This document shows positions 47,792 through 51,239 of a stretch of DNA of 64,000 bases, one piece after another. Position 1 is the stretch's first letter. Every line of letters begins with the position of its first letter. This stretch comes from Affinundibacterium nitidum (lineage in GTDB: Bacteria; Pseudomonadota; Gammaproteobacteria; Burkholderiales; Burkholderiaceae_D). The translations under genes and the position numbers were made by a program. The notes beneath the pieces are model-generated. The model worked only from the letters and a program-made list of their open reading frames with translations, made no database searches and had not been told where the DNA came from. The DNA lies in assembly GCF_014284155.1 (NCBI RefSeq), contig NZ_JACOFZ010000009.1, positions 62,001 through 126,000 on the forward strand. The letters are read 5' to 3'.

Positions 47792-48235
47792 CTACTTTCC
47801 GCCCGATGACGCCTGCGCCGCAAAAGTCACTTTTGCCAATCCTGCGATACGTGCTGCTTCTAGCACATCGATCACTGATTGATGGCTCGTCGCGCGATCC
47901 GCGTTAATGATGATCACAGGATCAGGATTACCTTTGCCAGAACCCAAAGCATCAGCCGCTTTTTTCAGATCGTTCGCCAAAGTTGCAGTGTCAAGAAAAC
48001 TCACTGCCTCGCTATTGATCTTATAGCGACCTTGTGCATCGATACCTATTTCAATTTGACTGGGTTTTTCTTGCGCCTTTTCAGCATCTGCAGTTGGCAG
48101 AGTAATTTGCAACTCAGTAAAACGGCTATACGTCGTGGTTACCATCAAGAAAATCAGGATCACCAATAGCACGTCGATAAATGGAATCAGGTTGATTTCA
48201 GGATCTTCCTTACCCAGACCTTTACGAAAATTCAT
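47792..48235 (-). CDS. exbD: ExbD/TolR family energy-transduction protein
   Basis: 147 residues. One membrane helix near the N-terminus (INLIPFIDVLLVILIFLMVTT) carries the essential Asp in PFIDVLLV; the rest is periplasmic and ends VTFAAQAS. It works with ExbB to feed proton-motive force to TonB-type proteins. It lies 42 bases behind exbB. No tonB gene is in the window. Confidence 0.92.
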   Translation of the reverse strand: MNFRKGLGKEDPEINLIPFIDVLLVILIFLMVTTTYSRFTELQITLPTADAEKAQEKPSQIEIGIDAQGRYKINSEAVSFLDTATLANDLKKAADALGSGKGNPDPVIIINADRATSHQSVIDVLEAARIAGLAKVTFAAQASSGGK

Positions 48236-48277
48236 GGAGGCGACTTCTTCCTAATATCAAATACGAAAATCTCGCAA

Positions 48278-48883
48278 TTACTTGCGCGTGCTGTGCACTA
48301 CGTCAACAAACTTCACTGCTTGCTGCTCCATTTCAACCACGAAGCTATCAATCAGAGCACGGAAATGGCGATAAAAAATCATCGCAGGCATCGCAATCAA
48401 CAGACCAAAACCGGTATTGTACAAAGCGACTGAAATACCATGCGCCAACTGTGCTGGATTCGCACCAGATGCATTTTGTGACCCAAAAATTTCAATCATA
48501 CCGACCACGGTTCCAAATAACCCCATTAATGGTGCCAAAGAAGCAATCGTCCCCAAGGTGGTTAGGAATTTTTCCAAGTCATGTGCAACCGCGCTTCCAG
48601 CTTCCTCGATGGACTCCTTCATCACTTCACGCGGTGCATGAACGTTACGCAAGCCCGCAGCCAATACACGGCCGAGAGGAGAATTGATCGCCAATTGATC
48701 GATCACCTCTTGCTTGATCTTTCCGCTTTGATACACGCGAATAACCTCTTCTAGCAAGGTTTTCGGCAAGATACGTTGACGGCGTAATGACAAGGAGCGC
48801 TCAATAATTAATGCCAGCGCCACGATAGAAGCTATCAAAAGTAAATAAATAGGCCAGCCAGCCGCCTGAATAATTGCAAACAA
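48278..48883 (-). CDS. exbB: MotA/TolQ/ExbB proton-channel family protein
   Basis: 201 residues. The start is TTG at 48883: AAGGAG sits six bases upstream, while the longer open frame to 48925 has no RBS. Three membrane segments are visible (IYLLLIASIVALALIIE; LTTLGTIASLAPLMGLFGTVVGMI; SVALYNTGFGLLIAMPAMIFY), with the family motif LGTIASLAPLMGLFGTV. Partner of ExbD. First gene of the leftward series; the large DnaA-box-rich spacer lies upstream. Confidence 0.92.
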   Translation of the reverse strand: MFAIIQAAGWPIYLLLIASIVALALIIERSLSLRRQRILPKTLLEEVIRVYQSGKIKQEVIDQLAINSPLGRVLAAGLRNVHAPREVMKESIEEAGSAVAHDLEKFLTTLGTIASLAPLMGLFGTVVGMIEIFGSQNASGANPAQLAHGISVALYNTGFGLLIAMPAMIFYRHFRALIDSFVVEMEQQAVKFVDVVHSTRK

Positions 48884-49874
48884 ATGAAACTCCTTACAAA
48901 GACTTAAATATGAATTGCACCTCAAGGCAAATTAAACTTCATCTGTCTTCAAACTCGACGAATCGAATGCAAAGACTGACCACTAAAGATGAATTTGCTA
49001 GATCAAGCTCGCAATGTATCGTGTTGTTGCGCAGCGGGCAAGTCTATCGCACGGAATATTTTTGTTAGGGCTAAAACACGACAAACCAAACTTATATTTT
49101 CCTCAACATCCAACTCGAAGTGAAAAGTTTTGCACAGAATCTGTGTGCAATATTGTGGATATCTTCTGGATGAAAAGATAAGTGATTGATTTATCGACAT
49201 TTTAGTCGCTAGCTACAAATTTAAGCACCTCCCTATTTTGACCAAAATATACGCAAAATACATTTCCCAACGGGAATTTTCGGAAATTTCTTCGGAAAAG
49301 TGGATAAGTCTCAAAGTTTTGCACACAAACTGTGGATGACTTTGTGAACAACACTTTTACACTTCTTTAAGTCATTGATTCATTTAAGTAAAAGTTATCT
49401 GCACGAATTTTGATCAAAGCTGGCTTTTATCTAAAAAATCAATAAAAAAATAAATAATACATAACTTATTTAGGAAATATCGCCTATATTCAGCAAGTTT
49501 TGCACAAGAATTGTGGATAAGATTGTGAACATGATGGGCAATAAAGTTTAAGTCGATGATTTCATTGATTTTTGTTTCACTGCCTTAAAAAAAGGCAAAT
49601 CTTGTTTTAATGCCACATGGAAATAATTTAAGTTTTTGTTCGATCTATCTGTGGATAACTTTGTGAATAAACTTGATGCCGAACTACTTATAAAAAGCCT
49701 TCAGCAAAGAAAGAAACTTTTTTTACATGAAATAAAATCAATAAAAACTTTAAATTATCTTATTAATCAATAACTTAAAGTTTTCAGCTAAAGCAGTTTT
49801 TAAGATGTGCAGCCACAGCTAGCCTCCCCTGCCCTATAATCACTGCTTGTGGACATATCTCCCCTTCAGACACC
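48884..49874. other. AT-rich spacer with DnaA-box modules, candidate origin or DnaA-binding locus
   Basis: 991 bases without a credible gene, divergent between exbB and xseA. Three modules at about 49128, 49317 and 49498 begin TTTTGCACA and continue, 6-17 bases on, with TGTGGATAT, TGTGGATGA or TGTGGATAA; in the last two TGTGAACA follows within five bases. A fourth, partial module has TGTGGATAA (49650-49658) and TGTGAATAA (49662-49670). TGTGGATAA and TGTGAATAA are exact matches to the DnaA box TTATNCACA on the other strand. Modules are followed by TAAGT-x-ATTGATT-like words. AT-only stretches (49438-49475, 49730-49775) could unwind. Whether it is the chromosomal origin is not decidable without dnaA or skew data. 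Confidence 0.7.
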
Positions 49875-51239
49875 ATGGCATCTTATTCTTTGTTCGACAA
49901 TCCCGCAAAAACCGAGCCTGTCATCACGGTATCAGCCTTAAACCAAGCGGTGGCGCGGCTTCTCGAGCAAAACTTTCCGCTGACTTGGATTTCCGGCGAA
50001 ATTTCGAACTTCACCCGCGCTGCCTCCGGGCACTGGTACTTCACACTCAAGGATCAAGATGCACAAGTGCGAGCCGTAATGTTTCGCGGGCGGGCGCAAT
50101 ACGCGTCATTTACGCCGAGAGAAGGCGATAAAGTCGAGGTACGCGCTGTGGTCGGACTCTATACACCACGCGGTGACTATCAAATCAATGTCGAAGCAAT
50201 ACGTCGTGCTGGCCTAGGCTCACTTTACGAAACTTTCCTCCGTCTCAAGGCACAGTTAGAGAGTGAAGGTTTATTCGATGCCGACAAAAAGAAAAATATT
50301 CCGATCTTTGTCAAACGTATTGCTATCGTCACCAGCCCGAATGCTGCAGCCTTACGCGATGTGCTCACGGCACTCAAACGTAGAGCTCCCCATGTAGAAG
50401 TTTGCATTTACCCAAGCCCGGTTCAAGGTGAAGGCGCTGCTGCCAAGATCGCCCAAGCAATTGCCACCGCGTCTGCAGACCCGCGCAACGAACTCCTAAT
50501 CGTATGCCGCGGGGGCGGGAGTATCGAAGACCTGTGGGCATTCAATGAAGAGATCGTAGCGCGCACCATTGCGCATTGCGAAATCCCAGTGATTAGTGGC
50601 GTCGGACATGAAACAGACTTTACCATTGCGGATTTTGTGGCTGACCTGCGAGCACCAACGCCAACAGCAGCGGCTGAGTTAGCCGCTACCGCGCAACAAG
50701 ACTGGCTCGCCACAATCGAACACCAAGGTCAACGCCTATATCGCCTCATGCACAGGCAAATCCAGACTCAGACCCAGCAACTCGATTGGACCGCAAGGCG
50801 CTTGATTAGCCCGATCGCCAGTATCGCGAGTAAGCGTCAAAGTCTGCAGATCAGCTCCCAGCATTTACGTCATGCTTTGCAAGTCCCAGCACAACGCGGT
50901 CGACTGCGTTTACAACAATTGCAACAGAGGCTGCAGCAGCATAAGCCACAGACCGCCGGCCTAGAGGCACAAGCGACTGGCAAGGCTGACGCGCTCAAAG
51001 TCGCAATGAATCAGCTACTCCAACAACGTCGCCTGCGTTTAGATCACCTCAAAGAACAACTAGAATTACTCAATCCCCAGCGTACTTTGGAACGTGGCTA
51101 TGTCATTTTAAGTCAGACAGATGGAAGCTTAATCCGCAGTGGTAAAGAACTTCACGCTGACCAACATCTCCTAGTACGTACAGCCCTTGATCTCAATGAA
51201 GTTCAATTGAAGCAGGTCGGAAAACCCCAGAAGTTGTAA
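49875..51239 (+). CDS. xseA: Exodeoxyribonuclease VII large subunit
   Basis: 454 residues. OB-fold N-terminus ([28 protein letters not shown]) followed by the XseA catalytic core ([75 protein letters not shown]), then a Gln/Leu/Arg-rich coiled coil and C-terminal [13 protein letters not shown]. It digests single-stranded DNA with XseB, which is not in the window. It is next to sodB, as in related genomes. Confidence 0.96.

Follow-up and report, generated by a model that had tools for sequence, protein, structure and literature searches.

The spacer between exbB and xseA in the 64-kb stretch of DNA analyzed here (the window) contains four tandem repeats (positions 49128–49670), each with three DnaA boxes. 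We propose, with a probability of roughly 0.7, that this spacer is a DARS2-type DnaA-reactivating locus that has been amplified into a four-unit tandem array. The proposal is based on the geometry and conservation of the boxes, the spacing of the consensus elements, the distance of the array from the skew switch, and the presence of dnaA, hda, and fis-like genes.

Organization of the exbB–xseA spacer

The repeats form a 37-nt family with copies at 49125, 49314, 49495, and 49633, i.e., at spacings of 189, 181, and 138 (Table 1). A sequence-only reading of the window had already noticed repeats spaced by 140–190 bases; what it took for modules of words are three-box units of fixed internal spacing rather than loose words. 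Its exact boxes, two copies of TGTGGATAA (49512 and 49650) and one of TGTGAATAA (49662), were all recovered, and the locus does have the appearance of a DnaA-binding site that this reading gave it, with clustered box triples and 11 DnaA-box-like words in 600 bp, compared with at most three per 600 bp elsewhere in the window. Over all 64 kb, such words occur at chance level when one mismatch is allowed (59 versus 61.6 expected).

Table 1. Elements of the array and its flanking genes in window coordinates. Each core starts at box I; > and < give box orientation, and offsets are from the core of the same unit.
Feature	Position	Strand	Description
ExbB/TolQ-family gene	48278–48925	-	flanks the spacer; scores below the curated cut-offs of the matching models
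Core M1	49128–49162	+	box I TTTTGCACA (>), altered box II at 49142 (<), box III ATATCCACA at 49154 (<)
IHF-type site	49179–49191	-	AATCAATCACTTA, exact WATCAANNNNTTR; 16 bp past M1; consensus match only
Fis-type 15-mer	49212–49226	no strand	GCTACAAATTTAAGC; offset +49 from M1; loose consensus
Core M2	49317–49351	+	box I 49317 (>), box II 49331 (<), box III 49343 (<)
IHF-type site	49368–49380	-	AATCAATGACTTA, exact; 16 bp past M2; consensus match only
Fis-type 15-mer	49401–49415	no strand	GCACGAATTTTGATC; offset +49 from M2; loose consensus
Core M3	49498–49532	+	box I 49498 (>), box II TTATCCACA 49512 (<), box III 49524 (<)
IHF-type site	49549–49561	-	AATCATCGACTTA, one mismatch; 16 bp past M3; consensus match only
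Fis-type 15-mer	49582–49596	no strand	GCCTTAAAAAAAGGC; offset +49 from M3; loose consensus
Core M4, nearest xseA	49636–49670	+	box I decayed (TTGTTCGAT); box II TTATCCACA and box III TTATTCACA exact
IHF-type site	49765–49777	+	AATCAATAACTTA, exact; offset +94 from M4; consensus match
xseA, exonuclease VII large subunit	49875–51239	+	flanks the spacer

Four same-strand box triples of one geometry were found in the array region at a threshold of at most four mismatches in 24 scored bases, and not even one such triple appeared in 1000 Markov shuffles of 49050–49749. A spacing scan of the array region, with boxes I, II, and III held in one orientation, gave a single clear winner, with box II at +14 and box III at +26. 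The poor boxes are box II of M1 and box I of M4. A first repeat of the M1 type is present in five relatives, in which box II reads TGTGTGC, TGTGCGC, or TGTGAGC. Rfam yielded no match in 48000–50500.

Comparison with DnaA-binding sites of E. coli

Box starts at 0, +14, and +26 in the orientation > < < are common to E. coli DARS1 (L009:208), DARS2 (L008:2636), and all four repeats. The array thereby holds three-box cores at the DARS1/DARS2 spacing with box I opposed, although box II of M1 and box I of M4 are weak. The same triple was absent, at up to four mismatches, from the E. coli K-12 oriC, datA, and dnaA stretches, as well as from the dnaA region of the source genome itself.

Passages of PMC5742627 and PMC8682772 describe the common DARS core as three boxes of which box I is opposed, and name the head-to-head contact as the part of it that does the work; the spacing is given as identical in DARS1 and DARS2 in the former, and the head-to-head arrangement is called functionally essential in a passage of PMC10380432. 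According to passages of PMC11317965, E. coli DnaA generally prefers box pairs 2 or 3 bp apart, and the pair with a 3-bp gap is also found by ChIP-seq at datA, polA, and purH. Since the 3-bp gap between boxes II and III is such a general preference, only box I facing box II is the DARS-specific part of the core.

E. coli DARS2, which lies upstream of mutH, resembles the array in its three-box core of the same orientation and spacing and, going by consensus matches, in the order of core, IHF sites, and Fis region. However, it has one core, whereas the array has four and those of relatives have up to seven. Its two IHF sites are located at +58 and +74, in contrast to +16 (M1–M3) and +94 (M4) in the window and +83 to +85 in relatives; its neighboring genes are different, and the Fis-type 15-mer of the array is located at +49. 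DARS1, upstream of uvrB, shares the core geometry and a TTATCCACA box II, but it is a single core with no IHF match within one mismatch in the scanned flank. E. coli oriC is also a cluster of DnaA boxes in AT-rich DNA; yet, the fetched stretch contains no such triple, and the array, for its part, has no skew switch.

Conservation of the core

At up to three mismatches, the core pattern was found in 193 of 196 family genomes, a count that takes in both the exbB–xseA locus and a second locus between hemE and priA, and the reversed control gave none. Only M2 and M3 of the window's own repeats pass this family pattern at the same threshold; M1 and M4 fail. When one base was added between boxes I and II, matches fell to 3 of 192 family genomes. 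A slightly looser pattern, at up to two mismatches, was present in 201 of 300 genomes of the order and 189 of 274 of the class (in the GTDB sense), again with a control of 0; class-wide, cores of DARS geometry usually number one or two per genome.

A scan upstream of xseA with no geometry preset covered 7688 arrangements (8 orientations × 31 × 31 spacings). Among 35 xseA loci outside Oxalobacteraceae, compiled after the core results had been seen and including records titled Gammaproteobacteria (L164 and L165) and Alistipes (L148), > < < 14/26 was the sole arrangement found in at least three loci at up to two mismatches, with 12 of 35, none of them these three records. A core within 1.3 kb upstream of xseA was found at up to four mismatches in 22 of the 35, L164 and L165 being counted. 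L148, titled an Alistipes senegalensis MAG, has an xseA 55% identical to that of the window and is probably mislabelled or contaminated. In 30 xseA loci of the order picked by HMM score, one of which (L256) belongs to the window's own family, the same arrangement ranked first with 7, 18, and 20 loci at up to two, three, and four mismatches, respectively, against 3, 4, and 11 for the runner-up.

About two thirds of the sampled betaproteobacterial xseA loci outside Oxalobacteraceae carry a core. At the thresholds used, it was absent from 10 of the 30 order loci, from 13 of the 35 named non-Oxalobacteraceae loci, and from the Herminiimonas locus (no core at up to five mismatches). The 13 include five of the six xseA loci from Paraburkholderia, Pandoraea, and Caballeronia, and no core was found in the first 5 kb of the locus in 28 xseA loci of other, mostly gammaproteobacterial, records.

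These data bear on a datA-like role, in which the array would titrate or inactivate DnaA, either soaking it up or, together with IHF, speeding ATP hydrolysis, and so delay initiation. The density of box-like words (eleven within 600 bp), the IHF-type sites next to the units, and the presence of several copies would all suit this function, and datA itself, according to passages of PMC5742627 and PMC11317965, respectively, combines DnaA boxes with IHF and contains a double box with a 3-bp gap. Yet, the fetched E. coli datA stretch lacks the 14/26 head-to-head triple, the boxes of the array are arranged as in DARS cores, and titration alone would not explain why the spacing of the head-to-head pair is constrained to a single base (3/192 versus 193/196). 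We therefore consider a titration site unlikely.

IHF-type and Fis-type sites

Every unit of the array also has a putative IHF component of a DARS2-type site, in the form of a consensus match at +16 (exact in M1 and M2, one mismatch in M3) or at +94 (exact in M4). An information profile over 30 Undibacterium modules peaks at the core, at the IHF match 16 bp beyond it, and at a 15-mer, GC-N11-GC, at +49, which is present in 21 of the 30; weaker AT-rich columns lie in between. With at most one mismatch, the IHF consensus occurs at +16 in 24 of the 30 Undibacterium modules (against a mean of 0.2 for each offset and strand), at +16/+17 in 34 of 60 other Oxalobacteraceae modules, and on the other strand at +84/+85 in 9 of 20 other modules, counts that are not independent because modules within one array are paralogues. 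For the xseA-proximal core, 12 of 14 named Oxalobacteraceae loci retain a far IHF match at +83 to +85, and the window has its own at +94. In the same scan, E. coli DARS2 gave two sites, at +58 and +74, with one mismatch each, and these positions match the 3-bp separation of IBS1-2 given in a passage of PMC4245941. As a remark only, the far IHF sites (+74, +84, and +94) are offset from one another by steps of roughly one helical turn.

A Fis-type 15-mer with at most two mismatches to a loose consensus was found at +49 in 25 of 30 Undibacterium modules (mean per offset 1.8), at +50 in 40 of 57 other Oxalobacteraceae modules (2.6), and at +51 in 14 of 20 other modules (1.0).

M4 probably corresponds to the lone core that other betaproteobacteria have. 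It looks like the ancestral betaproteobacterial unit, and M1–M3 resemble copies to which a nearer IHF site has been added. In the window's sublineage, box I of the xseA-proximal core may be in the course of being lost, as it is decayed in M4 and as boxes I and II lie one base further apart in the counterpart of M4 in a complete genome of the same genus (G166:C1:3084198–3084232).

Array size and unit spacing in Oxalobacteraceae

Outside Oxalobacteraceae, core-bearing loci show a single core, with the exception of L180, which has two overlapping cores on opposite strands. At up to five mismatches, cores were found in 16 of 17 named Oxalobacteraceae-type loci, with 4–6 per locus in Undibacterium, 6–7 in Janthinobacterium and in Duganella, 6 in Massilia and Pseudoduganella, and 7 in one Herbaspirillum; two MAGs have 2 and 1, the latter with only 367 upstream bases. 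The closest named match of the window's XseA is from Undibacterium (65% identical), and the genus of the window was assigned on this basis.

In Undibacterium, the unit spacings are helically phased (26 spacings, best period 10.39, R 0.81), none of 500 random sets being as good, and the same holds when Undibacterium and Janthinobacterium are pooled (43 spacings, R 0.78; 0/500). Four loci of other genera, with 18 spacings, showed no such phasing, 350 of 500 random sets being as good. For all loci pooled, the corresponding figures were 0/500 for 71 spacings and 5/500 for the 38 distinct values, orthologous spacings not being independent. L138 and L139, with the same spacings as L137, were omitted from the test entirely; L142 and L145, which are close to L141 and L144, were excluded from the other-genera set but included in the 71 pooled spacings.

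A second locus between hemE and priA

The source genome has one more core, located between hemE and priA (G000:C79:76411–76445, equivalent to L111:9411–9445), with an exact IHF match at +84. In 29 hemE/priA loci, 28 cores were read, and 26 of these have an IHF match at +83 to +85, against a mean of 0.17 per offset and strand. That two unrelated gene pairs share the same core–IHF distance is the strongest individual argument for a composite site. Among the 60 pattern loci checked (L010–L069), 57 held at least one of exbB, xseA, hemE, and priA; three loci from one genus of the family (L011, L012, and L013, in G053, G012, and G095) have a core and none of the four genes in the 3-kb locus. Both E. 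coli DARS sites (uvrB and mutH) and both proposed ones (xseA and priA) adjoin DNA repair or replication-restart genes.

The neighboring genes raise the alternative that the core is an operator through which DnaA would control the transcription of priA at the hemE–priA locus and that of xseA or exbB at the array. Indeed, 17 of 20 order loci with a core at up to four mismatches carry it 200–311 bp ahead of the xseA match; the genes downstream of DARS1 and DARS2 are repair genes, and the E. coli DnaA regulon includes repair genes according to passages of PMC11317965. However, the arrays of Janthinobacterium and Duganella extend more than 1 kb upstream of xseA, a Sideroxydans MAG has a 216-aa ORF (L160:3065–3715, OmpA-like by eye) between core and xseA, and the core–IHF distance recurs at two unrelated gene pairs. 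An operator function is thus quite unlikely.

Chromosomal position of the array

The AT-rich spacer, clustered DnaA boxes, and divergent genes had led the sequence-only reading to propose a candidate origin, but a chromosomal (or ectopic) origin is rejected as highly improbable, as the skew does not switch on the contig and switches elsewhere in G166. All 21 6-kb bins of the contig have negative GC skew, and the four slightly positive 2-kb windows are all at least 8 kb from the array, where no change of sign occurs. In G166 (4.539 Mb), the orthologous array is located at 3.084 Mb, in negative skew; the sampled stretches place one switch near coordinate 0 (4.538 Mb to 0), at a distance of about 1.45 Mb from the array, and the other within 2.258–2.300 Mb. 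The divergence noted earlier is real for exbB (-) and xseA (+) but only local, since three ORFs at 53.2–56.5 kb run leftward again. Of the observations which that reading had named as counting against an origin, a skew switch elsewhere was found, whereas a lack of box conservation was not, the boxes being strongly conserved in relatives.

The candidate origin of G166 is near a good II–III pair that lacks box I (5 mismatches, 4536814). On G166 C1 (L218 and L112), about 107 kb separate dnaA from the skew switch and a small cluster of boxes (4536828–4536986), and upstream of the source genome's own dnaA (L001) the only DnaA boxes are an exact one and another with a mismatch; oriC therefore seems to lie away from dnaA in the window's genus. 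In 13 gammaproteobacterial genomes, all 21 listed cores on the dnaA contig are at least 54 kb from dnaA (three more are on other contigs), which is only suggestive evidence against oriC, because oriC can lie away from dnaA, as in G166. In G144, the sampled skew around dnaA and hemE–priA (3.56–3.64 Mb) is small and mixed.

The replichore position of the array is 0.55–0.64 in six Oxalobacteraceae genomes, taking dnaA as the origin and mostly rounded genome sizes; the figure of 0.64 for G166 is by skew and becomes 0.69 by dnaA, and the array is confirmed at xseA in G166, G144, and G028 only. In 18 other single-contig genomes of the order, xseA is spread over 0.17–0.97, and conserved replichore position was therefore dropped as support.

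DnaA and its partner proteins

The genome has dnaA and also hda, which exceeds its curated cut-off. Between dusB and purH lies a 77-aa Fis-like ORF that scores just under the cut-off of its model (120.4 versus 122 bits). Among residues compared with E. coli DnaA in view of the head-to-head AAA+ contact, the genome's own DnaA keeps K178, D269, R285, L290, and R334, and R227 is replaced by His. Residue 208 is Gln in E. coli and Arg both in this DnaA and in the six relatives that are readable at this position. Gln208 of E. coli DnaA is specifically needed at DARS. This substitution is the main caution for a DARS-like mechanism.

Proposed mechanism and implications

By analogy with E. coli, DnaA-ADP would bind boxes I, II, and III of each unit. 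Box I faces box II, so that two DnaA molecules would meet head to head and lose their ADP, as at DARS1 and DARS2. The IHF site, accompanied by the Fis-type site in three units, would bend the DNA at a fixed distance from the core and switch the unit on, as at DARS2, and apo-DnaA would then leave, take up ATP, and become competent to fire oriC. That the proteins bind, that ADP is released, and in which direction the array acts are inferred from the E. coli sites. We further give an even chance to a broader proposal, namely that an old betaproteobacterial DARS system resides at loci unrelated to those of E. coli (exbB–xseA and hemE–priA), and that in Oxalobacteraceae the exbB–xseA site became an array of up to seven IHF/Fis-equipped units, helically phased in Undibacterium and Janthinobacterium, whose number would set the strength of reactivation.

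A passage of PMC4245941 calls the DARS2 core specific to E. coli-related γ-proteobacteria, and passages of that paper and of PMC5010248 refer to DARS conservation in E. coli-like species only, whereas a passage of PMC10380432, citing its reference 91, states that DARS-like sequences are conserved in many proteobacteria. A literature search over titles, abstract openings, and passages, covering few subscription journals, returned no report of DARS arrays or of an exbB–xseA or hemE–priA site. The core outside enterics may thus be partly known already. The reference 91 mentioned above is presumably Fujimitsu et al. 2009. Our claim of novelty concerns the tandem arrangement of the units and the loci in betaproteobacteria.

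Detailed knowledge of DnaA reactivation comes from E. coli and its two single-core sites. An independent locus with multiplied units, whose exact geometry is conserved in many betaproteobacteria, offers natural variants for testing box spacing, IHF position, and unit number against the timing of initiation. The finding also points to where replication control in betaproteobacteria may be sought, and the array, if it works as in E. coli, would extend and multiply a known cell-cycle control element.
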